Shown here: piece after piece, positions 37,145-51,782 of the stretch
How positions within the stretch are numbered: the stretch's first letter is position 1
Layout: each line of letters begins with the position of its first letter
Source: Mycolicibacterium sp.
Lineage (GTDB): Bacteria; Actinomycetota; Actinomycetes; Mycobacteriales; Mycobacteriaceae
Length of the DNA: 64,000 nt
Assembly (NCBI GenBank): GCA_020637165.1
Contig: JACJWN010000005.1
Coordinates: 1 to 64,000, forward strand
Direction: 5' to 3'
Position numbers and translations under genes: made by a program
The notes under the pieces: model-generated
Seen by the model: the letters and a program-made list of their open reading frames with translations, nothing else
Told to the model about the DNA's origin: nothing
Database searches by the model: none

Positions 37145-38608
37145 ATGGCGGTCCCGCCCATCAGCCTCGTCGAGCAGATGTTGCGCACGCGGCCGGTTCT
37201 CGGCGCTCCGGTGGCCCACGGGGCCGCCGCCGAGCTGAAGCGAAGCATCGGCGCGTTCCAGCTGACATTGTTCGGCGTCGGGGCGACTGTCGGCACCGGC
37301 ATCTTCTTCGTCCTGTCCGTGGCGGTTCCCGAAGCCGGACCAGCCGTGGTCGTGTCGTTCCTGATCGCCGGGCTTGCCGCGGGCCTGGCCGCTCTCTGCT
37401 ACGCCGAACTGGCCTCGGCCGTGCCGGTCTCCGGCTCGACGTACTCCTACGCCTATACGACGCTGGGAGAACTGGTGGCGATGGGTGTGGCGGCATGCCT
37501 TCTGTTGGAATACGGGGTGTCGACTGCAGCGGTGGCCGTGGGCTGGAGTGAGTACCTCAACAAGCTGCTCGACAACTTCTTCGGGCATCGTCTGCCCCAG
37601 GCTCTTTCGGCTGCGCCGTGGGGCAACGCCTCCCCGGGCCTGATCAACCTGCCCGCGGTCATCCTGGTTGCGCTGTGCGCAATGCTGCTGATCCGCGGTG
37701 CCAGCGAGTCGGCGAAGGTCAACACCGTGATGGTGTTGATCAAGCTGAGTGTCCTGGTGATGTTCTCCGCTATCGCGTTTACGGCATTCGATGCCGATCG
37801 GTTCGCGGAGTTCGCGCCATTCGGAGTCGCCGGCATCGGGGTGGCCGCCGGCACCATCTTCTTCTCCTATATCGGCCTGGATGCCGTGTCCACCGCCGGT
37901 GACGAGGTCAGGGATCCGCAAAAAACCATGCCCAAGGCCATCCTGGCCGCACTGGTAACCGTGACCGCCGTGTATGTGCTGGTCACCGTTGCCGCGCTGG
38001 GTGCGCAGTCCTGGAAGGGTTTCGAAGGTCAGGAAGCCGGCCTGGCCGCCATCCTGGACAGCGTCACCGGGGCCCGGTACTGGGGTACGGTCCTGGCAGC
38101 CGGTGCGGTGGTGTCGATCTTCTCGGTCACTCTGGTGGTTCTCTACGGACAGACGCGGATCCTTTTCGCGATGGGTCGCGACGGTCTGCTGCCGCCACTC
38201 TTCGCCAAGGTCAATCCACGCACCCTCACGCCGGTGAACAACACCGTCATCGTCGCCATCGTGATCAGCATCCTGGCCGGCTTCGTTCCGCTCGACTACC
38301 TGGCCGACATGGTCTCGATCGGCACCCTGGTGGCCTTCATCGTCGTCTCGGTCGGCGTCATGATTCTGCGGGTACGTGAGCCCGACTTGCCCCGCGGCTT
38401 CAAGGTGCCCCTGTATCCGGTCACGCCGGTGCTGTCGGTGCTGGCATGCGGCTACATCCTGTTCAGCCTGCACTGGTACACGTGGTTGGCGTTCGGTGCC
38501 TGGGTTCTGGTGGTGCTGGTGTTCTACTTCGCCTGGGGGCGTCACCACAGCGCACTCAACGACCGCGGCGCTCTCGATGACCACGGCGCTCTCAGCGACC
38601 ACAGCTAG
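37145..38608 (+). CDS. rocE: APC family cationic amino acid permease (RocE-like)
   Basis: This 487-residue amino acid transporter of the APC superfamily resembles the cationic amino acid transporter (CAT) branch. It has about 12 or more hydrophobic helices. The consensus GVGATVGTGIFF (about residues 39-50) and FFSYIGLDAVSTAGDEVRDP (about 240) are signature segments of lysine/arginine/ornithine permeases. The end has three short repeats (ALNDRG, ALDDHG, ALSDHS). AGGAGG lies five bases before the ATG. The gene lies beside the AsnC, DDAH/ArgZ and rocD genes, an order also seen in M. tuberculosis around rocE, so arginine or ornithine uptake is likely. Confidence 0.88.
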   Translation: MAVPPISLVEQMLRTRPVLGAPVAHGAAAELKRSIGAFQLTLFGVGATVGTGIFFVLSVAVPEAGPAVVVSFLIAGLAAGLAALCYAELASAVPVSGSTYSYAYTTLGELVAMGVAACLLLEYGVSTAAVAVGWSEYLNKLLDNFFGHRLPQALSAAPWGNASPGLINLPAVILVALCAMLLIRGASESAKVNTVMVLIKLSVLVMFSAIAFTAFDADRFAEFAPFGVAGIGVAAGTIFFSYIGLDAVSTAGDEVRDPQKTMPKAILAALVTVTAVYVLVTVAALGAQSWKGFEGQEAGLAAILDSVTGARYWGTVLAAGAVVSIFSVTLVVLYGQTRILFAMGRDGLLPPLFAKVNPRTLTPVNNTVIVAIVISILAGFVPLDYLADMVSIGTLVAFIVVSVGVMILRVREPDLPRGFKVPLYPVTPVLSVLACGYILFSLHWYTWLAFGAWVLVVLVFYFAWGRHHSALNDRGALDDHGALSDHS

Positions 38609-38664
38609 TCCGGACAGTCCGAACCGTACTCCGGCACGACATGCCCGCGTGCTGCGGCCGTGGG

Positions 38665-39111
38665 CTATGAGCGGGAGCGCTCGATGAGATTCGAGAGCAC
38701 GACAATGCTCTCGCTGCGCTCCACCTCTGCGGAGGACCGGATCCGTTCCAGTGCCGACTCCAGATGGCGCATGTCACGAGCCAACACATGCAGGATGGCA
38801 TCGGAGGTCCCGGTGACCGTGGCGGCGCTGACGATCTCAGGAATGTCGATCCAGGCGGCGCGCAACTGCTCGGGGGCGATCCTGCCGTGGCAGTAGACCT
38901 GGACATAGGCCTCGGTGTTCCAGCCCAGCGCATTGCGGTCCACCACCGTTGTGAACCCACGGATGACGCCGCTGTCGAGCATCCGATCCACCCGGCGTTT
39001 CACCGCGGGCGCCGAGAGGTTGACGCACTCTCCGATCTCGGCGAACGTCGCGCGGGCGTTCTCGGCCAACTCCGCCAGAATGCGCTCATCGGTGTCATCG
39101 AGTCGGTCCAT
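38665..39111 (-). CDS. Lrp/AsnC family regulator
   Basis: This 148-residue transcription factor has an N-terminal winged helix (DERILAELAENARATFAEIG, then LSAPAVKRRVDRM) and a C-terminal RAM ligand-binding domain (about residues 65-148). It probably senses an amino acid such as arginine or ornithine and acts on the divergent DDAH/ArgZ-rocD operon and perhaps on rocE. I start at the ATG at 39111, which has GGAAGGT about eight bases upstream; a GTG three codons earlier sits too close to that site. Confidence 0.9.
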   Translation of the reverse strand: MDRLDDTDERILAELAENARATFAEIGECVNLSAPAVKRRVDRMLDSGVIRGFTTVVDRNALGWNTEAYVQVYCHGRIAPEQLRAAWIDIPEIVSAATVTGTSDAILHVLARDMRHLESALERIRSSAEVERSESIVVLSNLIERSRS

Positions 39112-39150
39112 CAGAGCCACCTTCCACGCAATAAATCACCGCGATTGCGG

Positions 39151-39204
39151 ATTGCATGCAATATATATGACGCGAAAACGCAATGAACAGCGATTGATTG
39201 CGTT
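39151..39204. promoter_or_regulatory. Inverted repeats, likely AsnC operator
   Basis: The 117-base divergent region contains a perfect 12-base palindrome ATTGCATGCAAT (39151-39162). It also holds an inverted repeat AACGCAAT (39177-39184) / ATTGCGTT (39197-39204) with a 12-base spacer, and further GCAAT/ATTGC half-sites nearby. This is much more AT-rich and regular than surrounding DNA and fits binding by the adjacent Lrp/AsnC-type regulator. Confidence 0.7.
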
Positions 39205-39228
39205 CGATCGGCGCAATACGATCGCTCC

Positions 39229-40071
39229 ATGACAGTTTCGCCCGACGTCGCCGCGAGTAGCGCGACGACCCGCTGCTCTCGCCTCCGCCGGTACGCCATG
39301 ACCCGTCCGACGTTCTTCAGCGTCGAGTACGCGATCAATCCTTGGATGGACGTCAGTGTGGAGGTCGACGTCGACCTCGCGATCGCACAGTGGGAGACCC
39401 TGCGCGACACCTATCGCAAACTCGGCCACACCGTCGACGTGGTCGAGCCCGTCGCGGGCCTGCCGGACATGGTGTACGCCGCCAACGGTGGACTGATCGT
39501 GGGCAACACCGCGATCGTCGCCCGCTTCAAGCACGCCGAGCGCGAAGGTGAAGCGACGGCCTACGCGGAGTGGATGGCCCAGCAGGGCTACGCCCCGGTC
39601 ACCACCCGTCACATCAACGAAGGCCAGGGCGACTTCCTGGTGGCCGGTATGACCATCCTGGCCGGCACCGGCTTCCGGACCGATCGGCAAGCCCACTCCG
39701 AAGTTGCCGCGATAACCGGCATGCCCGTTGTCACACTGGAACTCGTCGATCCGCGGTTCTACCATCTCGACACCGCGATGACGGTCCTCGACGACACCAC
39801 GGTCGCCTACTATCCGCCCGCATTCAGCGCCGCGGCCCAGGCCCGATTGCGGGAATTGTTCCCCGGGGCGATCGAGGTGTCCAGCGCTGACGCCTACGTC
39901 CTGGGCCTCAACGCGGTCTCCGACGGCAAACACGTCGTTCATCCGCAGGCGGCGACCGGCTTCGCCGAACAGCTCTATCAAGCAGGATTCCAACCCATCG
40001 GTGTCGATCTGTCCGAACTGCTCAAGGGCGGCGGCTCCGTCAAGTGCTGCACTCTGGAGATACATTCATGA
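39229..40071 (+). CDS. DDAH/arginine dihydrolase-like guanidine hydrolase
   Basis: The 280-residue protein of the amidinotransferase/DDAH fold has the conserved TFFSVEYAINPWM region (about residues 28-40), MVYAANGGL (about 80-88), a catalytic histidine in YHLDTAM (about 177) and the C-terminal nucleophilic Cys in GGGSVKCCT (about 272). M. tuberculosis has a related gene annotated as DDAH beside rocD. The NPWM and AANGGL motifs also recall the cyanobacterial ArgZ/AgrE arginine dihydrolase, which turns arginine into ornithine, ammonia and CO2; that reaction fits this locus. The ATG at 39298 is an alternative start. Which reaction occurs is inference. Confidence 0.85.
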   Translation: MTVSPDVAASSATTRCSRLRRYAMTRPTFFSVEYAINPWMDVSVEVDVDLAIAQWETLRDTYRKLGHTVDVVEPVAGLPDMVYAANGGLIVGNTAIVARFKHAEREGEATAYAEWMAQQGYAPVTTRHINEGQGDFLVAGMTILAGTGFRTDRQAHSEVAAITGMPVVTLELVDPRFYHLDTAMTVLDDTTVAYYPPAFSAAAQARLRELFPGAIEVSSADAYVLGLNAVSDGKHVVHPQAATGFAEQLYQAGFQPIGVDLSELLKGGGSVKCCTLEIHS

Positions 40072-41309
40072 CCGTGACCGACATCCGCGCTCCCCAGGAA
40101 ACGGCGACTGCCGCCGCGATCGCGGCGGAGGAGGCGCACACCGCACGCAACTACGCGCCCCTGCCGGTGGTGGCGGCCAGCGCGCGCGGCGCATGGATCA
40201 CTGACGTCGAAGGCAAGCGCTACCTGGATTGTCTTGCCGCTTACTCCGCGGTCAACTTCGGCCACCATAACGACCAGATCGTTGCCGCGGCGCATCGGCA
40301 ACTCGACAGATTGACCCTCGTCAGCCGTGCATTCCACTCCGATCGCCTGGGTCCGTTCTGTGCCGATCTGGCCGCATTGTGCGGCAAGGACATGGTCCTG
40401 CCCATGAACAGTGGCGCCGAGGCCGTCGAGAGCGGGATCAAGGTTGCCCGCAAGTGGGGTACCGACATCAAGGGCGTGCCCGAGGGCATGGCCAACATCA
40501 TCGTGGCCGACAACAACTTTCATGGCCGCACCATCAGCATCGTCAGTTTTTCCACCGATGGCACGGCCCGCAACGGATTCGGCCCTTTCACACCGGGATT
40601 CCGTTCGACGCCTTTCGGCGATGCCGAGGCGGTGGAGGCCGCGATCGATGAGCACACGGTCGCGGTGCTCGTCGAGCCCATCCAGGGCGAGGCCGGAATC
40701 ATCGTCCCCCCGGACGATTATCTGCCGAGACTTCGCGAGGTGTGCAGCCGAAGGAATGTGCTGCTGATCGCGGACGAAATCCAGTCCGGCCTGGCGCGAA
40801 CCGGACGTACCTTCGCATGCGACCACTGGGGCGTGGTGCCCGATATCTATCTTCTCGGCAAGGCGCTGGGTGGCGGAGTCATCCCGCTGTCGGCAGTGGT
40901 GGCCAACCGGGACATCCTCGGGGTCCTCAATCCGGGCGAGCACGGGTCGACCTTCGGGGGAAACGCGCTGGCTATGGCCATCGGGACCGAGGTTGTGGAG
41001 ATCCTGCGCCGGGGAGAGTTCCAGGACCGATCGGCGCATCTCGGTGAACGCCTGCACGCACGACTGCGTTCGCTGATCGGCCGGGGAGTCCTCGATGTGC
41101 GCGGCATGGGGCTTTGGGCCGGTGTCGACATCGACGAGCGACTGGGCACCGGTAAGCAGCTGAGCCGGGCGCTGGCCCGCCGTGGCGTTCTGGTGAAGGA
41201 CACCCACGGATCGACACTGCGATTTGCCCCGCCGTTGGTAATCACCGCCGACGAGATCGATTGGGCCGTCGATCAGTTGGCCGACGTGCTGGGTGAGATG
41301 CACAACTAG
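40068..41309 (+). CDS. rocD: Ornithine aminotransferase
   Basis: This 413-residue class III PLP aminotransferase converts ornithine and 2-oxoglutarate to glutamate semialdehyde and glutamate. The landmarks are the N-terminal ARNYAPLPVV region, NSGAEAVESGIKVARKWG, the cofactor aspartate in LIADEIQSGLARTG, and the Schiff-base Lys in LLGKALGGGVIPLS (about residue 264). The start is the ATGA overlap with the preceding gene, so guanidine hydrolysis and transamination of its ornithine product would be coupled. M. tuberculosis has this gene split into rocD1 and rocD2; here it is intact. Confidence 0.95.
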   Translation: MTVTDIRAPQETATAAAIAAEEAHTARNYAPLPVVAASARGAWITDVEGKRYLDCLAAYSAVNFGHHNDQIVAAAHRQLDRLTLVSRAFHSDRLGPFCADLAALCGKDMVLPMNSGAEAVESGIKVARKWGTDIKGVPEGMANIIVADNNFHGRTISIVSFSTDGTARNGFGPFTPGFRSTPFGDAEAVEAAIDEHTVAVLVEPIQGEAGIIVPPDDYLPRLREVCSRRNVLLIADEIQSGLARTGRTFACDHWGVVPDIYLLGKALGGGVIPLSAVVANRDILGVLNPGEHGSTFGGNALAMAIGTEVVEILRRGEFQDRSAHLGERLHARLRSLIGRGVLDVRGMGLWAGVDIDERLGTGKQLSRALARRGVLVKDTHGSTLRFAPPLVITADEIDWAVDQLADVLGEMHN

Positions 41310-41372
41310 CGGTGGCCTGATTGCCGGGTAGCCGGATTCAGCACGGCACGACACGTTTCCGCGCAAAGAGCA

Positions 41373-42461
41373 TCAATCCGAAAGCAAATTGCCCGTTCTG
41401 CTTTCCAGCGGAATTTCGCCCGCGATCTTGCCGATCACCCGTCCGGGCCACGCGTACGGCTGGCTGTGGCGGGCGAAGAGCCGCCCGTCGGTCTCGGCCC
41501 GCAATTCCGTCTCATCGCCAAGCGGATCGATCACTGTCGCGACGAGATCGCCCTTGCGGACCACGTCGCCCAGCCGACGGCGATAGGCGACGAGCCCGGG
41601 GACCGGCGAGCGCAACTGCGCCATCGCTGTCAGCGCCGTGGCGCGGCAGGACAAACGCGGGTGCCCGCCCGACCCGGCGACAAAGCCGCGTGCCTGCAAC
41701 ATCCGCAGCAGCGCCGTGGCTTGGTCGGCGGCGCGTTCTAGATCGACATCGTCATTGCTGCCCAATTCCAGCGTGGCGGCGAGGCAGGCCGGCGGGATGG
41801 GCAGCACGGGGTGGTTCGCGGCCAGCACCCACCATGGACTGGCGCAGGCCTCATCGAAGGGATGGCCACCCGACACCTCGGACAGAAGAACGGCCCGCGC
41901 ATCGATCGCCGCGGCGATGTCCTCGGCTGCCGGCCACAGCGCCGGGCCGACGTACATGTGCGGCTCAGCCTCGTTGTCTGCGTGAAGATCGAGTACGAGG
42001 TCGGCGTCGTGGGCGAGCGTCAGCAACCTGTGGCGCAGATGTGCCAGTGCCCCATCCGGCTGCATCGCCGCAAGCCGCGCGGACATCGCGGCCCGGATCG
42101 TTGCGACGTTCGACGCCGCGTCTGGCCCCAGCGACAGGCTTCCGAGGTCTGACAGATCGGGGTAGTTGCGGTTGAAATTCTCGCCCGTGGCGTTGTCGAT
42201 GCGACCGGACACGAAGGTGGTTTCGGTCTGAGCCAGGCCGATCGGGTTTGCCTGCGGGACCAGCAGGATTTCACCATGGACCCCGCCGTGAGCCTCAGCT
42301 TCGGCCAGATGCCCGGCCAGGATGCGCAAGACCAGCATGCCGGGAAACTCGTCGGCATGCAGTCCGGCCTGCAGATATGCCTTCCTGCCAGCGCCCGCCG
42401 CGCCGAAGCGCAGCACGGTCAGGCGATGTGGCGAGCCCGGCAGGTCGTAGGTCTGGCGCAT
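41373..42461 (-). CDS. Succinylglutamate desuccinylase/aspartoacylase family hydrolase
   Basis: The 362-residue zinc hydrolase has the M14-like motif GLHADEFPG (His...Glu, about residues 33-41) and the third metal-binding histidine in DLHADNE (about 158). The C-terminal region VRKGDLVATVIDPLGD resembles the barrel-sandwich tail of this family. These enzymes cleave amide bonds of N-acyl amino acids. As the last gene of the cyanophycin operon, it is the candidate for splitting beta-aspartyl-arginine released by cyanophycinase, a job usually done by isoaspartyl dipeptidases. That is inferred from context. Confidence 0.8.
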   Translation of the reverse strand: MRQTYDLPGSPHRLTVLRFGAAGAGRKAYLQAGLHADEFPGMLVLRILAGHLAEAEAHGGVHGEILLVPQANPIGLAQTETTFVSGRIDNATGENFNRNYPDLSDLGSLSLGPDAASNVATIRAAMSARLAAMQPDGALAHLRHRLLTLAHDADLVLDLHADNEAEPHMYVGPALWPAAEDIAAAIDARAVLLSEVSGGHPFDEACASPWWVLAANHPVLPIPPACLAATLELGSNDDVDLERAADQATALLRMLQARGFVAGSGGHPRLSCRATALTAMAQLRSPVPGLVAYRRRLGDVVRKGDLVATVIDPLGDETELRAETDGRLFARHSQPYAWPGRVIGKIAGEIPLESRTGNLLSD

Positions 42462-42476
42462 CCTGGTTTCACTCCA

Positions 42477-42532
42477 CCTATCTCAATCGGCCTATCTCAT
42501 TCGGCCTATCTCATTGGGCCGGTCTCATTCGG
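42477..42532 (-). repeat. Four tandem 14-bp repeats
   Basis: Four consecutive 14-base units (plus-strand consensus CCTATCTCATTCGG) occupy 42477-42490, 42491-42504, 42505-42518 and 42519-42532, with one to three changes each. They fill the gap between the small PIN-like gene and the zinc-hydrolase gene. They overlap the end of the former by eight bases and lie 16 bases ahead of the latter's start. A role in differential translation or mRNA processing is possible. Confidence 0.85.
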
Positions 42533-42899
42533 CCGGCGGAGTATCCATCGGCGCAGCCTCCGTCTGTACAACAACCGCGTCGCCGGACGGAAGCACGAAC
42601 ACATCCGTCTCGTAATAGGCCGCGCAGGCCGCATGCAGGCGATCTTTCAGGTCACCCTCCGTCGACATCGACCCTTCGACCAAATGACGACCGGGGGGCA
42701 TGTCGCGCAGTTCGATCTTCTGTGCATCGAGAAAGGCCGTCAACTCGTCCTCGCCCAGATCCGGCAGCTCCATGGCGGCTTCGATGACGGCGAGCGGCGA
42801 GGTGTAGCGCGGCCCCGCGGCGGCAATGGCAGGGGCGCTTGCCGCCGCCCTTTCCGGATCGGAAAGCAGCGCGGCCAGGGTGGTTCCATCGAAATACAT
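42525..42899 (-). CDS. Small PIN-like protein of the cyanophycin operon
   Basis: This 124-residue protein of unclear family starts MYFDGTTLAALLSDP, much like the first strand of VapC/PIN ribonucleases with its acidic residue at position 4. An acidic residue also follows in SPLAVIEAAMEL (about 45) and again in LKDRLHAACAAYY (about 85), the spacing expected in PIN folds; the last acidic site is not apparent. No antitoxin partner is present. It lies 20 bases after the cyanophycinase gene. It could be a degenerate PIN protein or an unrelated fold. Confidence 0.7.
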   Translation of the reverse strand: MYFDGTTLAALLSDPERAAASAPAIAAAGPRYTSPLAVIEAAMELPDLGEDELTAFLDAQKIELRDMPPGRHLVEGSMSTEGDLKDRLHAACAAYYETDVFVLPSGDAVVVQTEAAPMDTPPAE

Positions 42900-42919
42900 G
42901 ACTGTTCGTCCTTTCGTTG

Positions 42920-45124
42920 TTATCCGTGTCGATCACGGATGCTTTCAATATCGAGATGGCCTGTGCCATCGCCGTTGGAGCGGTAGAGCAGGGAAATATG
43001 CGGTTCGTGTGTGACGCCGGGCACTGTGACCGGCCCTGCCGTGCCGATACAGTCCTCGATCAATTCCGCCACCAGAGTATCCAGCTGGGCGGCGGATGCG
43101 GTCGCAGGCGCCAGCCGGGTAATGGTCCCGGCCGCCATGTCGATGACATCTCCCGGACCGGCAAAACACAGCCTGGTGCCCGGCGCGATGAAATCGTCCC
43201 CCGCAAGCTCGGTCTTGAGCGGATCGACCTCGACTAGGACGGCGCCGCGCGCGCCGATCGCGGTGAGTTTGCTGTTGTCGTGGTTGGCGATGACGCCGCT
43301 GTCTTCTAGAAGGCCGAGCCCGAACCGTACGCCCTCCTCCGCGCAGGCGACGGCAAGGCGGCCGAGACGGCGCGAGCAGGACAGTTTCTGGTCGACGATG
43401 GCGGCGCCGAACAATCCCAACCCTTCCTGGATCACCAATCCGCGCCGTCCCATATCCGAGGCAATACCGAACCGCAGCGCTTCAAAGGACGTACCGCCGC
43501 CGATCATGAAGCCGGACAGCGCCGAGGCCGCGCCGCCCACGCCGACGATCATGGCGCCGGCCGCCCGGGCATGCGCAATGGCCATCAGCAGCGGTGTGAT
43601 CTCACCACGGTAGAGCAGGGATTCCACCAGCCTGATCTGGTTGCCTCCGGTCAAGATGATGGTGCGCAGCGCCGCGATCTGATCGACCATTGCTTCCTCG
43701 CGCATCAGTCGGTCAACGTTGTCGATGGTGACGCCCAGGTCGGTGGCCTCGACGCCGTGGCTGCGCAACACGTCGATATAGTCCCGCGCTGTCTCGCGGG
43801 GCTCGGATGAAGCTGCGGCAATGACGCCCACCGGCCCCTCGCACCGGGACGTCAGCTCCGCAAGGAGCGGGTTGTCGCGTTCGAGCGGCGCCGAGCCCAG
43901 CATCATCACACGCGCCTCTAGACTCGGGTGTACACCGTAGTCGCGGGACAACGCCGCTCGCCTGTTCTCTGCCAGTTGCGCCGCATTAAGCTGACGCGTT
44001 CGCATGCTGGCCCGAAAATCCACGGCCGTCATGCGGAAATCATGCCCGTCGCCGGGGATATAGGCGGCCGCGCGGCCGCCATGACGGGAAATCTCGACGC
44101 TGGTGGCGTAGCCGGCCCGGGGCTCTATCGCGCGGGCGCGATCGGCCGGATAGTCATCGGGGTCGCCGAGCACCAGCCGCGCCATGAGGTCGTACAGCGT
44201 GTAGGCGCCGAAGACGTTGCGGAGTGAGCGGGCGGGGGCGTTGTAGGTGATGTCCCGCGGTGTCACCGGCCGCTTGCCCGGGCCGGGCCGCACCTCACCC
44301 GTTTCCAGGTCACAGCTGTCACCGTCGTCGGCATAACTGATACCGATGTTGTCGATCAGCCTGCGGCTGCGGTCGATTTTCGCCTGTGCCAGATCGAAGA
44401 CGAAGACACCGTATTCGCCGACCACTCGCGCGGTCCTGCCCTCGACGAACAGGGCTGTGTTTTCGTCGACACCGAAGCCGCGCCTGGTGCCGGACTCCTG
44501 CATGCCGACGACCATCCGCCCGAACCGGCCGCGCTTGATGAAATGCTGGTCGACGATCCCCCAGGGAAAGAAGCCGAGCCCCGGTGCCAGCAGTATTCCG
44601 GGCTGGTCCGCGTTACCAACCACACCATAGGTCGCAGCCTCCAGGGACGTGCCGCCGGAGAACATCACCTCGGACATGATGGCGGCCCCGGCGCTGGAAC
44701 CGGCGACCAGCGAACCCTTGCGCTGCGCTTTTCGGATCGCCTTGAGCACCCGGCTTTCCCGACCTTGGGGCGCCAGTGCCCCGGTGATCAGGGCTTGGTC
44801 GCCGCCGGTGAAGTAGACGCTGCCGTAGTCCTCGACCAGGTCTGCGATCGCCGCGTCCTGTGCGGCCGCCGGCGCCCCGGGTCCGTGAACACCTGCCTCG
44901 ACGGCATCGAAGCCGTAGGCGCGAAACACCTCAACGGTTTCGGGGCCGACCTCTTCGGGTACCGACGACGCCGTCGCGAAGACGACGATCCTGCCGCCGG
45001 CCAGACGCCGCATCTCGTCGTAGATGGCGGTGTTGTCGTCTTCCAGGCGGCCGCCGATGATTGCCAGTTTCGGGATGGCGCCCCCGCGATGAGTGAAGAG
45101 GATTCTGCTGAGCGTCCGCGTCAT
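42920..45124 (-). CDS. cphB: Double-domain cyanophycinase
   Basis: The 734-residue protein contains two cyanophycinase-like domains. The first (about residues 17-300) has the serine-hydrolase nucleophile Ser144 in AGSSAGAAIM and the catalytic histidine in DQHFIKRGR. It should cleave cyanophycin to beta-Asp-Arg dipeptides. The second (about 405-690) aligns over the same landmarks, but the nucleophile position reads VGVGGAAS (Gly530) and the histidine motif reads DQKLSCSRR, so it is probably catalytically dead and structural or polymer-binding. The start overlaps the cphA stop by four bases (ATGA). Confidence 0.9.
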   Translation of the reverse strand: MTRTLSRILFTHRGGAIPKLAIIGGRLEDDNTAIYDEMRRLAGGRIVVFATASSVPEEVGPETVEVFRAYGFDAVEAGVHGPGAPAAAQDAAIADLVEDYGSVYFTGGDQALITGALAPQGRESRVLKAIRKAQRKGSLVAGSSAGAAIMSEVMFSGGTSLEAATYGVVGNADQPGILLAPGLGFFPWGIVDQHFIKRGRFGRMVVGMQESGTRRGFGVDENTALFVEGRTARVVGEYGVFVFDLAQAKIDRSRRLIDNIGISYADDGDSCDLETGEVRPGPGKRPVTPRDITYNAPARSLRNVFGAYTLYDLMARLVLGDPDDYPADRARAIEPRAGYATSVEISRHGGRAAAYIPGDGHDFRMTAVDFRASMRTRQLNAAQLAENRRAALSRDYGVHPSLEARVMMLGSAPLERDNPLLAELTSRCEGPVGVIAAASSEPRETARDYIDVLRSHGVEATDLGVTIDNVDRLMREEAMVDQIAALRTIILTGGNQIRLVESLLYRGEITPLLMAIAHARAAGAMIVGVGGAASALSGFMIGGGTSFEALRFGIASDMGRRGLVIQEGLGLFGAAIVDQKLSCSRRLGRLAVACAEEGVRFGLGLLEDSGVIANHDNSKLTAIGARGAVLVEVDPLKTELAGDDFIAPGTRLCFAGPGDVIDMAAGTITRLAPATASAAQLDTLVAELIEDCIGTAGPVTVPGVTHEPHISLLYRSNGDGTGHLDIESIRDRHG

Positions 45125-47847
45125 TTCGCCGGAACGATTAGCACACCGCGATCATCCGACGTGAGAACGAAGCCATCGGGAACGTCGAATGTGGATGCTG
45201 CGAGACGCTGTTCGACGGGCTCGGGTCCGGGCGCGGTGAATTTCGGCGTGAATTGGATGATCTGCTTCCAACAGCGCGTGATCGCCTCGCAGAAGTACAG
45301 CACCAGATCGTCGGGTCGCGCCTGCTCCAGCGCCGCGTCTAGGGCCTCGTCCTCCTCGCCGATGATGCTGATGGCCTCGGGTGCGACACCCTCGGAGATC
45401 AGGGCGTCCCGCAGCAGCATGGGGATTTCGTCGGGCCCGCGATCGCGCAGATTGTCGTCGCGGTGGCAAATGTAGGTGTCGAAGTGGCCGGCGACCTTGC
45501 GGGCGATGGCCACCGCATCCTCGTCGCGCCGGTCGCCTGGGCAGGTCACCCCGACGATCTTGCGCCCCCGCGGCTTGAGCCTGTCGACCACGTCGACCAT
45601 GGCTCCCACCGCCGCTTCGTTGTGCCCGTAGTCGAGGATCACCCGGAAACCGTGTTCATCGAAGACGTTCATTCTCCCCGGGCTCTGGAAGAAGCTGTTG
45701 TCGAAGGTGCGCAGCCCGGTGCGAACCTGATCCAGTGTCTTGCCGAGCGCGTAGGCCATGCCGGCGGCGAACATGGCGTTTTCGACGTTGTGCAGCGCCT
45801 TGCCCTCCAGTGTGGCCGGGATGAGGTAGGTCCACATCAGCGGCATCTGGGTGCCGTTGTCGTAAATCACAATCTGGTCGCCGTTGACCCCCTGCTCGAG
45901 AACGACCGCGGGCTTGCCGAGTCCGATGTGTTCGCGTACCAGTTCATGCTCCGGGTTGCGCGTCACGTACATGACCTGCTTGGCGGGGGAGAAGGCCGCC
46001 ATCTTCAGCGTCTGCTCGTTGTCGGCGTTCAACACCACCGTGCCGCGCGTGACTTCCGCGACGACGCGTTTCACCCGGGCAAGACCTTCCAGGGTATCGA
46101 CGCCGCCGAGCCCGAGGTGGTCGGACGCGACGTTGAGCACCGCGCCAACATCGCAGAAGTTGTAGCCCAGGCCGGAGCGGACGATACCGCCGCGCGCGGT
46201 CTCCAGGACCGCGATGTCGACCGAGGGATCGCGCAGCACCATGTTGGCCGACAGCGGCCCGGTCATATCGCCCTTGACGGTCACCCTGCCATCGATCACC
46301 ACGGCGTCGGTGGAGGTCTGCCCCACGACATGACCCGCCATCTTCAGTATGTGCGCCAGCATGCGCGAGCAGGTGGTCTTGCCGTTGGTTCCAGTCAGGG
46401 CGGCGATGGGAACGCGAGCTTGGGTTCCTGGTGGGAAGAGCATGTCCATGATCGCCCCGCCGACGTCGCGCGGCGTGCCCTCGGACGGCGCGATATGCAT
46501 GCGCAGGCCAGGTCCCGCGTTGATCTCGCAGATGCCGCCGCCGGTCTCGGTGTAGCTCTTGGTGATATCGGTGGTCAGGAAATCCACGGCGCCGACATCG
46601 AGGCCGATCGCCCGGATCGCACGCTCGGCCATCAGCTTGTTTTCGGGATGGATCGTGTCGGTGACATCCACCGCCGTGCCGCCGGTCGAAATGTTCGCGG
46701 TCTTTCGCAGATACACCTCCTCGCCGTCGGCGGGGACCGTCTCGGGGGTGTAGCCCTTTTCCTCGAGCAGGTCCTTGGCCTGATCATCGATTTCGAGACG
46801 GGTCAGCACGTTTTCGTGCCCGACGCCGCGACGCGGGTCCTGATTGACGATGTCGACCAGCTCAGCGATGGTGTGGCGCCCGTCGCCCTTCACATGCCCC
46901 GGCACCCGGCGCGCGGCGGCGACGAGTTGGCCGTTGATCACCAGGAGCCGGTGGTCGTCGCCGCACAACATGGTCTCCACCAACACGGTCCGCCCTTCGG
47001 CCTCGGCGGTCTCGAAGGCGGCGGCGACGCCGTCCTCGGACGTGATACCGACCGTGACGCCCCGGCCGTGGTTGCCGTCGAGCGGCTTGATGACCACGGG
47101 GTAGCCGATCCGCTCAGCCGCCGCTATCGCCTCGTCCACGTCGTAGACCACCTTCTGTCGCGGCACGGGCAGACCGAGATCGGCGAGGAGGCTGTTGGCG
47201 AGGTTCTTGTCCGAGGCGATTTCGACGGCGATATGCGAGGTCTTCGACGTCAGCGCGGCCTCGATCCGCTGCTGGTACTTGCCCTGGCCGACTTGGATCA
47301 GGCTTGCGTCATTGAGCCGGTAGACCGGAATGTCGCGGGCCTGGGCCGCGCGCACCAATTCCATGGCCGAGGGTCCCAGCGAACGCCTTTCGGCATAGTC
47401 CAGGAAATCGTCGACGTCTTTGCCGAGGTCGCCGGCCTCATCCTCGGCGCGGGCGATGACGGCGAGCATGTCGCAGGCAACCTCGCCGGCCTCGATACCG
47501 ATGTCCTCATTGCCGTAGCTGTAGAACACCTGGACGATGTCGGGATCATCGGTCGGCTCCGACCATGCCAATGTGCCGTCGATACCGGCTGCGTGCTGAA
47601 GCGCCAGCGCCAGCCTTCCGACCAGATCGCCGATGGACAGCGCCTCTCCGGCGCGCAGTGCGGCGTGCCACTCGGTCTGTTCGGTCGCGAGCCCCGGCAG
47701 CACCTCCGCAACTCTGTCGATCACGCCCGCGCCCAGGTCCTGAAGGGTTTCCGCATAGCTCGGCTTGACGTCCAGCTTGAGCCGGATCACCGGCTCCAGC
47801 GCATGCACGTTGGGACCCACGTAGACCGAGATGGAATCGATGTTCAA
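45121..47847 (-). CDS. cphA: Cyanophycin synthetase
   Basis: The 908-residue enzyme polymerises aspartate and arginine into cyanophycin, using ATP for each addition. The N-terminal domain (residues 1-160) begins ISVYVGPNVHAL. An ATP-grasp domain (about 212-470) includes KPLDGNHGRGVTVG and ETGGGICEINAGPGLRMH. A Mur-ligase-like domain starts with the P-loop LTGTNGKTTCSRM (about 484-496) and continues through ETARGGIVRSGLGY, DHLGLGG and LDYGHNEAA. All three parts are complete, as in CphA1. It starts at a TTG with AGGA about eight bases upstream. Codon third positions look a little less GC-rich than in neighbours. Cyanophycin genes are not part of the usual mycobacterial set. Confidence 0.95.
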   Translation of the reverse strand: MNIDSISVYVGPNVHALEPVIRLKLDVKPSYAETLQDLGAGVIDRVAEVLPGLATEQTEWHAALRAGEALSIGDLVGRLALALQHAAGIDGTLAWSEPTDDPDIVQVFYSYGNEDIGIEAGEVACDMLAVIARAEDEAGDLGKDVDDFLDYAERRSLGPSAMELVRAAQARDIPVYRLNDASLIQVGQGKYQQRIEAALTSKTSHIAVEIASDKNLANSLLADLGLPVPRQKVVYDVDEAIAAAERIGYPVVIKPLDGNHGRGVTVGITSEDGVAAAFETAEAEGRTVLVETMLCGDDHRLLVINGQLVAAARRVPGHVKGDGRHTIAELVDIVNQDPRRGVGHENVLTRLEIDDQAKDLLEEKGYTPETVPADGEEVYLRKTANISTGGTAVDVTDTIHPENKLMAERAIRAIGLDVGAVDFLTTDITKSYTETGGGICEINAGPGLRMHIAPSEGTPRDVGGAIMDMLFPPGTQARVPIAALTGTNGKTTCSRMLAHILKMAGHVVGQTSTDAVVIDGRVTVKGDMTGPLSANMVLRDPSVDIAVLETARGGIVRSGLGYNFCDVGAVLNVASDHLGLGGVDTLEGLARVKRVVAEVTRGTVVLNADNEQTLKMAAFSPAKQVMYVTRNPEHELVREHIGLGKPAVVLEQGVNGDQIVIYDNGTQMPLMWTYLIPATLEGKALHNVENAMFAAGMAYALGKTLDQVRTGLRTFDNSFFQSPGRMNVFDEHGFRVILDYGHNEAAVGAMVDVVDRLKPRGRKIVGVTCPGDRRDEDAVAIARKVAGHFDTYICHRDDNLRDRGPDEIPMLLRDALISEGVAPEAISIIGEEDEALDAALEQARPDDLVLYFCEAITRCWKQIIQFTPKFTAPGPEPVEQRLAASTFDVPDGFVLTSDDRGVLIVPAK

Positions 47848-48353
47848 GGGGGCATCCTCATCAGCCGTTGGAAATCTTCACACGAAAACGCGGTCGGACT
47901 TCCGCCGCGCCCCGTACGGAGTATTCCAACACGCGGGACGATCTTCCGCAGTACTTGCGCGCGATGAGGAATCCGACTCCCTCGGCGGGGGTCAATCGAC
48001 GAGGATTTCGATGGTGGTGCTGGGCGTGCTGTCGGCTCGGTCGGACGAGCCCGCAACCGTCGGTTTGCCTGGCACCGGCAGCAGCGGCAGAATCGGGTCA
48101 TCCGCGACCCCAACGACGTTGACTGATCGAACGCAAACCTCCACCGCAAAGTCAAAAACACCTCGTAACCCAACGAGACCTCTGGGCCCAACGAGACCTC
48201 TGGGCTGTTGCCGAACCACGACGATGGCCGAATCGACGAGCGCTCGCGACACTCCGCGGTCTCGCTGACCGGCCAACGTATGTATTCCCAACTTGCCCTG
48301 CATCTCGACAGCTGCGGTGACATAGGCAACCGCCCGAGCCACGAGGAGCCGCC
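47848..48353. other. Divergent regulatory region between cphA and putA
   Basis: A 506-base gap separates the start of cphA (leftward) from the start of putA (rightward). It must hold both promoters and includes an exact 18-base tandem duplication at 48169-48204. A minus-strand open frame (47992-48342, with PRGLVG repeated because of the duplication) is unconvincing. No recognisable gene was found. Confidence 0.6.
48169..48204. repeat. Perfect 18-bp tandem repeat
   Basis: The unit CCCAACGAGACCTCTGGG occurs twice with no gap, at 48169-48186 and 48187-48204. Each unit is partly self-complementary at its ends (CCC...GGG), which would suit a dimeric regulator. It lies about 150 bases upstream of putA and 320 bases upstream of cphA. 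Confidence 0.85.
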
Positions 48354-51300
48354 ATGAGCGATGTCCGTCCGCAAGACCTTGCCGACAAGGCGGTCGACCT
48401 CGTCCGACACTGGTTGACCGAAGCCGCGAAGGTACCCGTCGATCCTTCGGCGGAGCAGCTGGCCGGGGTTCTCAAAGACCCCAACGGGCTGGAATTCACA
48501 GTCGGTTTCGTCGATGGAGTGATCCGCCCCGAGGACCTTTCGGTCGCCGCGGCGAATCTTCGACGCCTTACCGGAAAGACTCCGGAATTCCTGCCCTGGT
48601 ATATGCGCTTTGCGGTGAGGCTCGGCGGGATGCTCGCCATGGTGTCGCCGAGCCTCGTCATCCCATTGGCGCGCAGGGTGCTTCGCATGATGGTCAGCCA
48701 CCTCATCATCGACGCGAGCGACGCGAAGCTGGGCAAGTCCATCGCGAAGATCAAGAAAGACGGAATCAACCTCAACGTCAACCTGCTCGGCGAGGCGATT
48801 CTGGGCGAGGGGGAGGCTGCACGCCGCCTCGCGGGAACCGCTGAGCTGCTCGCTCGCGACGACGTGGACTACGTGTCGATCAAGGTCTCTTCCACTGTTG
48901 CTCCGCACAATCACTGGGCCTTCGACGACGCCGTCGACCATATTGCCGAGCGGCTCGCGCCGCTCTACCGCCAAGCGGTCTCCGCCGTACCCACACGCAA
49001 GTTCATCAACCTGGATATGGAGGAGTACAAGGATCTCGAGTTGACCATCGCGGTGTTCACCCGCCTGCTCGACAGACCCGAGTTCAGAGAGCTCGAAGCC
49101 GGGATCGTTCTCCAGGCCTACCTGCCCGACGCCCTGGCGGCGATGATCCGCCTCCAGGAGTGGGCGGCGGCGCGTGTCGCAGCCGGCGGTGCCCCGATCA
49201 AGGTTCGTGTGGTCAAGGGCGCGAACCTGCCCATGGAGGTGGTCGACGCCGATTTGCACGGCTGGCCGTTGGCGACCTGGCACTCCAAGCGGGAGACCGA
49301 CACTTCGTACAAGGCCGTGCTCGACTACGCGATGCACCCGGACCGGATCGCCAACGTCAGGATCGGGGTGGCAGGGCACAACCTTTTCGACGTGGCGCTC
49401 GCCTGGCTGCTGGCTCAGGAGCGTTCCGTCACGGCCGGCGTCGATTTAGAGATGCTGCTGGGAATGGCCGCGGGCCAGGCCGAGGTGGTCCGAAGGGATG
49501 TGGGTTCATTGCTGCTTTACACCCCGGTGGTGCATCCGGCTGAATTCGACGTCGCCATCGCGTATCTGATTCGTCGCCTCGAGGAGGGCGCCTCCCAGGA
49601 GAACTTCATGTCCGCGGTTTTCGAGCTCGAGAAGGACGAAGCCCTCTTCGAGCGGGAGAAACAACGTTTCCTGGACTCGCTGGCGGCCCTGACCGACGAG
49701 GTGCCGGCACCGAATCGGGCGCAGGACCGCCGCCTCGCCCAGGCCCCGGCCCTGTCTGAGGGCTTCGCCAACTGCCCCGACACCGACCCGGACCTGCCGG
49801 GAAACCGCGAGTGGGGTGCCAAGATCGCCGCGCGAATGCGCGACTCGCATCTCGGTGAGGCGACGGCAGAGGCGGGTTGGGTCGACTCGCAGGCCGAATT
49901 GGACCGGATCATGGCCACGGCCCTCGACGCCGCCGCCGCATGGCAGGGCCTCGGTGCCGCGGCCCGGGCCGCGATCCTGCACCGCGCCGGTGATGTCCTC
50001 GAGGCCAAACGGGCCGAACTGCTGGAGGTGATGGGCGCCGAGTGCGGCAAGACCCTCGACCAGGGCGACCCGGAGGTTTCCGAGGCGATCGACTTCGCTC
50101 ACTACTACGCCGAGCTGGGGCGCGAGCTCGAGAACGTTCGCGGCGCCGCGTTCGAGCCGCCCAGCCTGACCGTCGTCACGCCGCCGTGGAACTTTCCCGT
50201 CGCGATTCCCGCCGGATCCACCCTCGCCGCGCTGGCCGCTGGCTCTGCGGTGGTCATCAAACCCGCCGCCGAGGCCAGACGCTCCGGGGCGGTCATGGTC
50301 GAGGCGCTGTGGGAGGCCGGGGTTCCCCGCGAGCTGCTCGCTTACGTGCAGTTGAGCGAGCGCGACCTGGGTGCCGCCCTGATCGCGCATCCGAAGGTCG
50401 ACCGGCTCATCCTCACCGGTGCCTACGAGACTGCGGAACTGTTCCGCTCGTTCCGGCCCGATCTGCCTCTGCTGGCCGAGACGTCCGGCAAGAACGCCAT
50501 CATCGTCACCCCGTCGGCCGACCTGGACCTGGCCGCCAAGGACGTCGTGCACTCGGCCTTCGGCCACGCCGGCCAGAAATGTTCCGCCGCCTCACTGGTG
50601 GTGCTGGTCGGCAGCGTCGCGGAGTCCCCACGATTCCGGGGTCAGCTGATGGACGCCGTGCGGTCCCTGCAGGTGGGCTATCCGTGGGACCTGAGCACCC
50701 AGATGGGGCCGGTGATCTCCCCGCCCGAGGGCAAGCTGCTCCGTGGGCTGACCACGCTCGGGGAGGGGGAGACCTGGCTCCTGACCCCACAACGGCTTGA
50801 TGACTCGGGCAAGCTGTGGAGTCCCGGGGTGCGGCAAGGCGTGCGGCGCGGCTCGGAGTACCACCGCACCGAGTACTTCGGACCCATCCTCGGCATCATG
50901 GCCGCCGAATCGCTGCAAGAGGCGGTGGCGATCGTCAACGAAGTTGATTACGGGCTCACCTCGGGTCTTCATTCCTTGAACCCCGAAGAAATCGGCTACT
51001 GGCTGGAACAGATCCACGCCGGCAACCTCTACGTCAACCGGGGGATCACCGGGGCAATCGTGCGACGCCAGCCGTTCGGGGGCTGGAAGAAGTCCGCGGT
51101 GGGCGCGGGCGCCAAGGCCGGCGGGCCGAATTACCTGGTCGGGATGGGCTCCTGGCATGATGCCCCGCTGCCGTCGGTTCCCGGGGCCGTGACCGGGCTA
51201 CCAGCGCGGATTCTGGAAGCGATGGACGCAGAGGAGCACCGCGCCTGGCTGGCCGGCGCACTGAGCGACGACGCCCGGTTGTGGGCCGAAGAGTTCGGCG

Positions 51301-51782
51301 TGGCCAAAGACGTCTCCGGATTGTTCGCCGAGCGAAACGTGTTCCGTTACCGGCCGGTGCCGGTTGTCATCCGCTATGACGCAGAGACCTCCGGGCACGG
51401 GGTGGCCGAACTCGCCCGGGTCGCGGCGGCGGGGCTCCTCGCAGGTGCTGCCCTGACCGTTTCGACCGCCGTCGCCATCCCCGGTCCGCTGGCGAATGTG
51501 CTGCGTTCGGCCGACGTCGCGCTGACGGTCGAGGACGACGAAGCCTGGACCGCTCGCGTCGCCCGGCTGGCCGGCACCGGCCCGGCCCGCATCCGGCTGA
51601 TCGGGACGAGCGTCGCTGCGACAGCTCGGGCCGCCGGCGGCTCTCCGGATATTGCTGTTTATGCATCGGATGTGGTGTCGGCCGGCCGCGTAGAGCTACT
51701 CACCTTCCTGCACGAGCAGGCGGTGTCCATCACAGCGCACCGATACGGCACCCCGAATCATCTGAGTGACGCTGTGATCTAG
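48354..51782 (+). CDS. putA: Bifunctional proline dehydrogenase/P5C dehydrogenase
   Basis: The 1142-residue bifunctional enzyme oxidises proline to P5C (FAD-dependent) and then glutamate semialdehyde to glutamate (NAD-dependent). The N-terminal proline dehydrogenase barrel spans about residues 30-450, with SIKVSSTVAPHNHWAF and RVVKGANLPMEV. The aldehyde dehydrogenase part spans about 530-1000, with the general base in AETSGKNAI (about 708) and Cys in GHAGQKCSAAS (about 741). A 120-residue tail follows. M. tuberculosis has two separate genes for these activities. The second activity would also consume the product of RocD. Confidence 0.93.
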   Translation: MSDVRPQDLADKAVDLVRHWLTEAAKVPVDPSAEQLAGVLKDPNGLEFTVGFVDGVIRPEDLSVAAANLRRLTGKTPEFLPWYMRFAVRLGGMLAMVSPSLVIPLARRVLRMMVSHLIIDASDAKLGKSIAKIKKDGINLNVNLLGEAILGEGEAARRLAGTAELLARDDVDYVSIKVSSTVAPHNHWAFDDAVDHIAERLAPLYRQAVSAVPTRKFINLDMEEYKDLELTIAVFTRLLDRPEFRELEAGIVLQAYLPDALAAMIRLQEWAAARVAAGGAPIKVRVVKGANLPMEVVDADLHGWPLATWHSKRETDTSYKAVLDYAMHPDRIANVRIGVAGHNLFDVALAWLLAQERSVTAGVDLEMLLGMAAGQAEVVRRDVGSLLLYTPVVHPAEFDVAIAYLIRRLEEGASQENFMSAVFELEKDEALFEREKQRFLDSLAALTDEVPAPNRAQDRRLAQAPALSEGFANCPDTDPDLPGNREWGAKIAARMRDSHLGEATAEAGWVDSQAELDRIMATALDAAAAWQGLGAAARAAILHRAGDVLEAKRAELLEVMGAECGKTLDQGDPEVSEAIDFAHYYAELGRELENVRGAAFEPPSLTVVTPPWNFPVAIPAGSTLAALAAGSAVVIKPAAEARRSGAVMVEALWEAGVPRELLAYVQLSERDLGAALIAHPKVDRLILTGAYETAELFRSFRPDLPLLAETSGKNAIIVTPSADLDLAAKDVVHSAFGHAGQKCSAASLVVLVGSVAESPRFRGQLMDAVRSLQVGYPWDLSTQMGPVISPPEGKLLRGLTTLGEGETWLLTPQRLDDSGKLWSPGVRQGVRRGSEYHRTEYFGPILGIMAAESLQEAVAIVNEVDYGLTSGLHSLNPEEIGYWLEQIHAGNLYVNRGITGAIVRRQPFGGWKKSAVGAGAKAGGPNYLVGMGSWHDAPLPSVPGAVTGLPARILEAMDAEEHRAWLAGALSDDARLWAEEFGVAKDVSGLFAERNVFRYRPVPVVIRYDAETSGHGVAELARVAAAGLLAGAALTVSTAVAIPGPLANVLRSADVALTVEDDEAWTARVARLAGTGPARIRLIGTSVAATARAAGGSPDIAVYASDVVSAGRVELLTFLHEQAVSITAHRYGTPNHLSDAVI

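Follow-up and report, generated by a model that had tools for sequence, protein, structure and literature searches.

A predicted cyanophycin storage cassette, probably of proteobacterial origin, beside native arginine genes in a mycobacterium

We analysed a stretch of 64,000 nucleotides of a Mycolicibacterium sp. (GenBank assembly GCA_020637165.1, contig JACJWN010000005.1, positions 1 to 64,000; hereafter, the window), whose source genome comprises 3.85 Mb in 32 contigs. Four minus-strand genes of the window, encoding a cyanophycin synthetase (CphA), a two-domain cyanophycinase, a small PIN-like protein and a CphZ-type zinc hydrolase, very probably constitute an imported cyanophycin storage cassette lying beside native arginine genes. 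The locus is best read as a composite one that serves nitrogen storage; we infer its activities, its polymer, its co-regulation and its physiological role from the sequence. A preliminary description of this DNA had named the genes discussed below, and all of them were confirmed at their places by coordinates and family matches.

The cyanophycin gene block

The cphA gene (45121-47847, minus strand; 908 aa from a TTG start codon) encodes a protein that exceeded the cut-offs of both cyanophycin synthetase 1 families, NF010623 (1054 bits, cut-off 877) and TIGR02068 (992 bits, cut-off 850). End-to-end alignment with solved cyanophycin synthetases gave 1454 bits with 7lgn (72% identity) and 1430 bits with 7lgm, which we take to be the enzymes of Acinetobacter baylyi and Tatumella morbirosei, respectively. 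Alignment to 7lg5 showed that the histidine of the ATP-grasp (G) domain is kept, H260 corresponding to SuCphA1 H267, as is the Asp-His pair of the Mur-ligase (M) domain, D576/H577 corresponding to D585/H586. According to the part of PMC9262961 available, the G and M sites are inactivated in SuCphA1 when H267 and D585/H586 are mutated. By homology, the window CphA is predicted to polymerise Asp and Arg, with ATP, into (beta-Asp-Arg)n. The same partial source describes a third site of CphA1, the HxxEH motif (Cx19HxxEH) of the N domain, which cleaves the polymer to give primers, as well as a primer-dependent TmCphA1 that has no HxxEH (PMC9262961). In an alignment of 52 CphA sequences, this N-domain metallopeptidase motif was absent from the window CphA. 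It was missing in all 18 rows of the window CphA clade and, among the 34 other rows, only in a divergent plasmid copy from Chryseobacterium, the remaining 33 having it. Since the HxxEH site is missing, the window CphA is predicted to be a primer-dependent synthetase.

The cyanophycinase gene (42920-45124, minus strand; 734 aa) matched TIGR02069 with 229 bits (cut-off 126.6). The match covers the first of two related domains, at about residues 20-250; the second lies at about residues 414-668. S144, H194 and Q110 of domain 1, presumably the active-site residues, were kept in 15 of 15 aligned proteins. At the corresponding positions of domain 2, with columns counted by eye, the histidine was replaced by Lys (11/15), Asn (3/15) or Ile (1/15), and the serine position held Gly (7/15), Asp (1/15) or Ser (7/15); the domain 2 alignment is weakest for the Aliiruegeria protein (34% overall). 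Because the histidine is lost in all 15 proteins, domain 2 should be inactive in every one of them. A two-domain cyanophycinase with domain 1 intact and domain 2 degenerate was found at 15 of 15 checkable loci of the window clade and at none of 30 checkable others. The 18 CphA rows behind the former figure comprise 15 that lie beside the two-domain enzyme, two truncated at contig ends (L025, L026) and a PDB sequence with no genome. In the rest of the alignment (34 rows), 30 rows are accompanied by a single-domain cyanophycinase of 265-328 aa whose stop codon lies inside the stretch examined, and four have none in that stretch. The HxxEH loss and the two-domain enzyme coincide in a single clade, which counts as one event and is no proof of a causal link.

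The two-domain architecture itself is not unique to this clade. We observed a two-domain cyanophycinase on a plasmid of Cytobacillus spongiae (L101, 6346-8412), each domain of which has GTSAGA and DQHF motifs. The 14 kb examined there contain no cphA, and the protein is possibly a scavenging enzyme. Plasmid 2 of Kitasatospora fiedleri (L108) carries two cyanophycinase genes alongside an M20-type hydrolase and a transporter of the amino acid ABC type, a set that looks like a cyanophycin-scavenging cluster.

The zinc hydrolase gene (41373-42461, minus strand; 362 aa) showed the Pfam AstE/AspA catalytic domain (61 bits, cut-off 25). Its closest solved relatives were 8ein (399 bits) and 8eip (396 bits), both deposited as succinylglutamate desuccinylases; we take 8ein to be the CphZ structure from the CphZ study (Sharon et al., PNAS 2023). 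The window protein shares with CphZ the annotation family and retains the Glu that is altered to Ala in 8eip; by homology, it is a putative beta-Asp-Arg dipeptide hydrolase. In the available part of PMC10206079, proteins of the CphZ-type annotation are reported to hydrolyse beta-Asp-Arg, and the family to take beta-Asp-Lys as well.

The remaining gene of the block (42525-42899, minus strand) encodes a protein of 124 aa with a weak match to Pfam PIN PF01850, at 21.0 bits and thus under the cut-off of 23.6. Ten of 13 homologues matched PIN at E<=1, with a best value of 1.2e-5. Their alignment contained a first Asp in 12 of 13 and a Glu in 13 of 13 proteins; the further, later Asp that PIN domains carry in their acidic metal site was not seen. 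The small protein had no NCBIfam match, and its best PDB match was weak (E 0.41); in PADLOC, one of the 13 members weakly matched HamA (E 0.033). The length of the C-terminus differs among the homologues, and in two loci (L023 and L024) this end is repetitive.

The preliminary description had presented these genes as one overlapping minus-strand operon. The co-directional, tight block was borne out, and overlap was found only between cphA and the cyanophycinase gene (4 bases, 45121-45124), the gaps being 20 bases from the cyanophycinase gene to the small gene and 63 bases from there to cphZ. The order cphA-cyanophycinase-small gene-cphZ was found in 13 of 16 actinobacterial loci, with 65-97% identity per gene; in the other three (L025, L026 and L033), contig ends cut the block. 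This recurrence of four genes in one order argues that the block is not a chance arrangement. Among the 13 loci, cphA of one is cut by a contig end (L040), two have broken frames (L034 and L039), and two look like one strain (L024 and L028); the window, like 10 of these 13 loci, has intact frames for all four genes. The nearest named relative is the metagenome-assembled genome (MAG) Mycobacterium sp. HKST-UBA35 (L020, the same genome as G257), whose CphA is 97% identical. Upstream of cphA lies a conserved element (47921-47940, minus strand), the core of which, GTTGGAATAC at 47921-47930, was exact in nine of 14 aligned loci (the window and 13 others) and had at least one change in five, while GATGAGGATG, immediately before the cphA start, was exact in 13 of 14, both counted by eye. 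The TTG start codon of the window recurs in L020 and L039, the other aligned loci having ATG or GTG.

In the deposited complete genome of Mycolicibacterium litorale F4 (L039, 10001-12735), cphA is split into two frames with a break near residue 438, which may reflect either sequencing error or decay. Similar frame breaks occur in cphA and the cyanophycinase gene of the MAG locus L034.

Distribution and origin of the block

The genomes searched were samples and not every species; the genus sample contained 297 genomes, and the sample for the small-gene search was drawn as for the CphA search. Ten of the 297 genomes carry the block. This count takes the ten CphA matches at E<=1e-150, leaves out that of G095, which is another protein (31% identity), and adds G211, which is absent from the CphA matches because its gene is cut by a contig end; there, the cyanophycinase gene, the small gene and cphZ follow the truncated cphA. 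The small gene was likewise found in ten genomes, nine with a window-type CphA plus G211, and in none of the 297 was it found without the block.

On a tree of rpoB from 27 genomes of the genus including seven carriers, the distribution of the block required at least four changes, and a single carrier clade was rejected (approximately unbiased (AU) test, p 2e-43). The rpoB frame was picked by an RpoB motif, by which the outgroup G299 was lost from the tree; no match to rpoB was obtained for G257 or G287, and G211 was not included.

A tree of CphA, proposed in the preliminary description, placed the window protein in a proteobacterial clade, apart from those of other Mycobacteriales. Of 100 loci that matched CphA, 51 entered the 52-row tree along with one PDB row, while fragments, duplicates of one contig, the frame-broken L034 and L039, weakly matching other proteins (L002, L016 and L018) and some extra relatives from groups that already had rows were omitted; a 44-row tree was obtained by dropping eight long-branch rows (L041, L058, L059, L076, L077, L079, L081 and L107). 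In the latter, the 13 mycobacterial rows formed one clade with support of 100/100, whose sister is Paracoccus limosus (81%), followed outward by 7lgn, then Aquabacter, then Aliiruegeria together with the Rhodobacterales genome G558. Grouping the 13 Mycobacterium rows with ten rows from other Mycobacteriales was rejected (AU p 3.3e-5). Since the window CphA nests in the proteobacterial clade, the block was probably imported from Proteobacteria, and the simplest reading of its distribution is one import followed by transfer and loss among mycobacteria.

In a search for the donor, 20 of 345 genomes of the P. limosus family had a CphA above the cut-off, of which only those of P. limosus (82%) and G558 (67%) were of the window kind, the other 18 showing 40-54% identity. 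In 337 genomes of the Aquabacter class, a two-domain cyanophycinase was found at E<=1e-60 only in the search centre itself, and 350 gammaproteobacterial genomes gave seven CphA proteins at E<=1e-200, none above 56% identity. Plasmid-borne relatives were discarded as donors, since 19 plasmid CphA matches were all below 60% identity and the six included in the tree fell outside the window clade.

The clusters of P. limosus (L031), Aquabacter (L032), Aliiruegeria (L035) and G558 share with the window the CphA clade, to which 7lgn also belongs, and a two-domain cyanophycinase in all four; a CphZ-type gene is present in the first three and an amino acid permease in the first two, with no match to either near the cphA of G558. 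P. limosus also has, at the same place in its cluster, an open reading frame (ORF) 44% identical to the small PIN-like protein, whereas no such gene was found at E<=1e-3 beside the cphA of Aquabacter, Aliiruegeria or G558. The window differs from these clusters in that its host is a mycobacterium, its permease is a mycobacterial RocE paralogue and its block adjoins an arginine cluster and putA. Among other Mycobacteriales, 18 genomes outside the genus had a CphA1 above the cut-off (20 of 249 in total, with the window and one congener). They belong to three other families of the order (f4, f9 and f15; L042-L059), and 16 of them showed 43-45% and two 38-39% identity to the window CphA. These loci likewise encode a cyanophycin synthetase, in most cases with a cyanophycinase nearby; however, they represent separate CphA lineages, have HxxEH in 12 of 12 rows checked, and, where a cyanophycinase was found, it is a single-domain protein of 277-328 aa.

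Cyanophycin systems, including actinobacterial ones, are already known. The part of PMC10206079 available reports CphA1 in 35 complete Actinomycetota genomes, with genera unnamed; for genomes related to Tetrasphaera, the available part of PMC9123174 gives cphA and cphB as present in 48 of 69; an activated-sludge paper (PMC10687191) does not mention mycobacteria or actinobacteria in the part available. Among titles in the openly licensed literature, covered in part, we found no report of cyanophycin in mycobacteria. The remark in the preliminary description that its author knew of no described case holds for mycobacteria within that literature, and does not extend to actinobacterial cyanophycin genes.

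Neighbouring arginine genes and permease

On the side of cphZ, the block adjoins genes for an AsnC/Lrp-family regulator (38665-39120, minus strand), a DDAH/arginine dihydrolase-like enzyme (39229-40071, plus strand) and the ornithine aminotransferase RocD (40044-41309, plus strand; TIGR01885 460 bits, cut-off 378), with a RocE-type amino acid permease gene (37145-38608, plus strand) beyond them. On the other side, a putA-like gene with proline dehydrogenase and aldehyde (glutamate semialdehyde) dehydrogenase domains (48354-51782, plus strand) is divergent from cphA. We found the dihydrolase at E<=1e-40 in 11 of 15 mycobacterial genomes tested, with AsnC adjoining in 11 of 11 and RocD in ten of 11; the four genomes with no match at this threshold were the non-carriers G002 and G016 and the carriers G032 and G209. 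Six of the 11 have no CphA match (G004, G011, G017, G020, G029 and G049), and the AsnC-dihydrolase-RocD cluster, being present also in mycobacteria that have no cphA, is native to mycobacteria. The corresponding mycobacterial cluster, rocE-rocD-dihydrolase/DDAH-AsnC, is presumably Rv2320c-Rv2324 in M. tuberculosis; the window shares its AsnC-dihydrolase-RocD set and differs by having a cphA-linked RocE paralogue on the AsnC side.

The two gene sets are far apart in G236 and G009, about 40 kb apart in G123 and about 5 kb apart in Mycobacterium sp. M26; among the loci examined, they are tightly joined only in the window lineage, and no locus but the window and L020 has PutA next to cphA. The preliminary description had suggested a search of mycobacterial genomes for CphA with this neighbourhood; in the genomes sampled, the cyanophycin block recurred, and its tight junction with the arginine cluster kept to the window lineage. 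A reading of all these genes as one evolved locus was not supported, the arginine cluster being native and the block an import found in ten of 297 genomes.

The dihydrolase-like protein had its best PDB matches in Sll1336 and Alr4995 (151-161 bits), which we take to be ArgZ and AgrE, as compared to 25.5 bits for the DDAH 3rhy, and it keeps Asn at the position occupied by Ser in the 6juz chain. The overlap of its gene with rocD favours ornithine as its predicted product.

The window permease is 58% identical to that of P. limosus, and in a tree of 16 permeases it grouped with the cphA-linked mycobacterial ones, with support of 87/96, which is under the usual 95. A RocE-type permease adjoins cphA in nine of the 16 actinobacterial loci. 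A second RocE (80%) is encoded on another contig of the window genome, with no AsnC-dihydrolase-RocD cluster in the surrounding 16 kb. Judged by its sequence, the window permease is a mycobacterial RocE paralogue.

A proposed role in nitrogen storage

The comparisons above support the proposal of the preliminary description that a mycobacterium possesses a set for cyanophycin synthesis and breakdown beside an arginine-to-glutamate route. Under nitrogen excess, CphA1 would join Asp and Arg with ATP into a (beta-Asp-Arg)n store, from which domain 1 of the cyanophycinase would free beta-Asp-Arg dipeptides, and CphZ would split these into Asp and Arg. The dihydrolase would convert arginine to ornithine, and RocD would turn ornithine into glutamate semialdehyde, from which PutA, through its dehydrogenase half, would form glutamate; RocE would import arginine. 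The block would have entered mycobacteria once from Proteobacteria, later moving among them or being lost, and in the window it would have come to lie beside the native arginine cluster. More speculatively, and in our estimate rather improbably, the clade may have a control of its own, in which CphA has lost its primer-making protease site, the dead domain 2 of the fused cyanophycinase binds or holds chains, and the PIN-like protein of P. limosus and the mycobacteria adds a further control, for example on cyanophycinase activity or on the transcript; in mycobacteria, this would couple a reserve of nitrogen to the native route from arginine to glutamate. The preliminary description was silent on the degenerate domain 2, the missing N-domain site and the tie of the small gene to the cassette.

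Product specificity is unreadable from sequence alone, and the acceptance of beta-Asp-Lys by the CphZ-type family (PMC10206079, in the part available) would suit a CphA-like enzyme that yields another beta-linked polymer or a short oligomer, for example with Lys, in place of storage cyanophycin. We regard this as improbable, since the window CphA is 72% identical over its full length to 7lgn, a cyanophycin synthetase of the same clade, and cphA is linked to a cyanophycinase gene and a CphZ-type gene and, in the window, to arginine catabolism. Still less probable, in our view, is that the block is an unused passenger, a neutral or decaying mobile segment. Its patchy occurrence (10/297), with at least four changes on the 27-genome rpoB tree, and the broken frames of M. 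litorale F4 and MAG L034 would fit such a history; however, 10 of the 13 four-gene loci maintain four open frames, as does the window, active-site residues and gene order are kept despite a difference of up to 35% in one protein, and the short element upstream of cphA is conserved.

The alternative to which we give the most weight, while still considering it rather unlikely, is that the dihydrolase, RocD and PutA do not consume the arginine released by polymer breakdown, the adjacency being accidental and the block serving amino acid supply only. The junction is tight only in the window lineage, looser (about 5 kb) in M26 and absent in G236 and G009, where the two sets are far apart, and a dihydrolase match is missing in the carriers G032 and G209, as this alternative would have it. 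On the other hand, the overlap of the dihydrolase and rocD genes and the RocE permease beside cphA in nine of 16 actinobacterial loci indicate a flux of arginine.

Several results weigh against an imported storage cassette coupled to the arginine route, which we nevertheless prefer. The G+C content of the block (64.5-68.0%) resembles that of the AsnC, dihydrolase and RocD genes (64.7-65.0%), and G+C was discarded as a mark of import since native genes of the cluster have the same value. No donor was found in the samples of the P. limosus family, the Aquabacter class or the gammaproteobacteria, which places the true donor lineage outside the sample. Two of the seven carriers tested (G032 and G209) gave no dihydrolase match at E<=1e-40, so that the arginine route is neither universal nor a fixed partner among carriers, and because, among the loci examined, it is in the window lineage alone that the arginine cluster and putA immediately adjoin the block, a functional link rests on one lineage. 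The dihydrolase-like protein passed NF045659, the mycobacterial dimethylargininase family (478 bits, cut-off 300), and failed NF052232, arginine dihydrolase (197 bits, cut-off 450). Lastly, the deposited sequence of M. litorale F4 has a broken cphA frame.

If the preferred reading is true, some environmental mycobacteria store nitrogen, together with carbon, in a polymer whose genes were acquired from Proteobacteria. To judge by their record titles, several of the carriers may be MAGs from water or sludge samples, and the finding would then bear on nutrient storage there. The missing N-domain site and the fused cyanophycinase coincide in one clade, part of which also has the PIN-like protein, and this clade offers a natural test set for chain initiation by CphA1 enzymes that have no N-domain site.

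Two minor features of the locus were also noted. A 14-base unit is repeated 4.1 times between the small gene and cphZ (42477-42534 of the window), and HKST-UBA35 has, between cphZ and rocD, an additional ORF of 462 aa (L020, 16447-17835) that the window does not contain and that we take, by eye, to encode an L-serine dehydratase.

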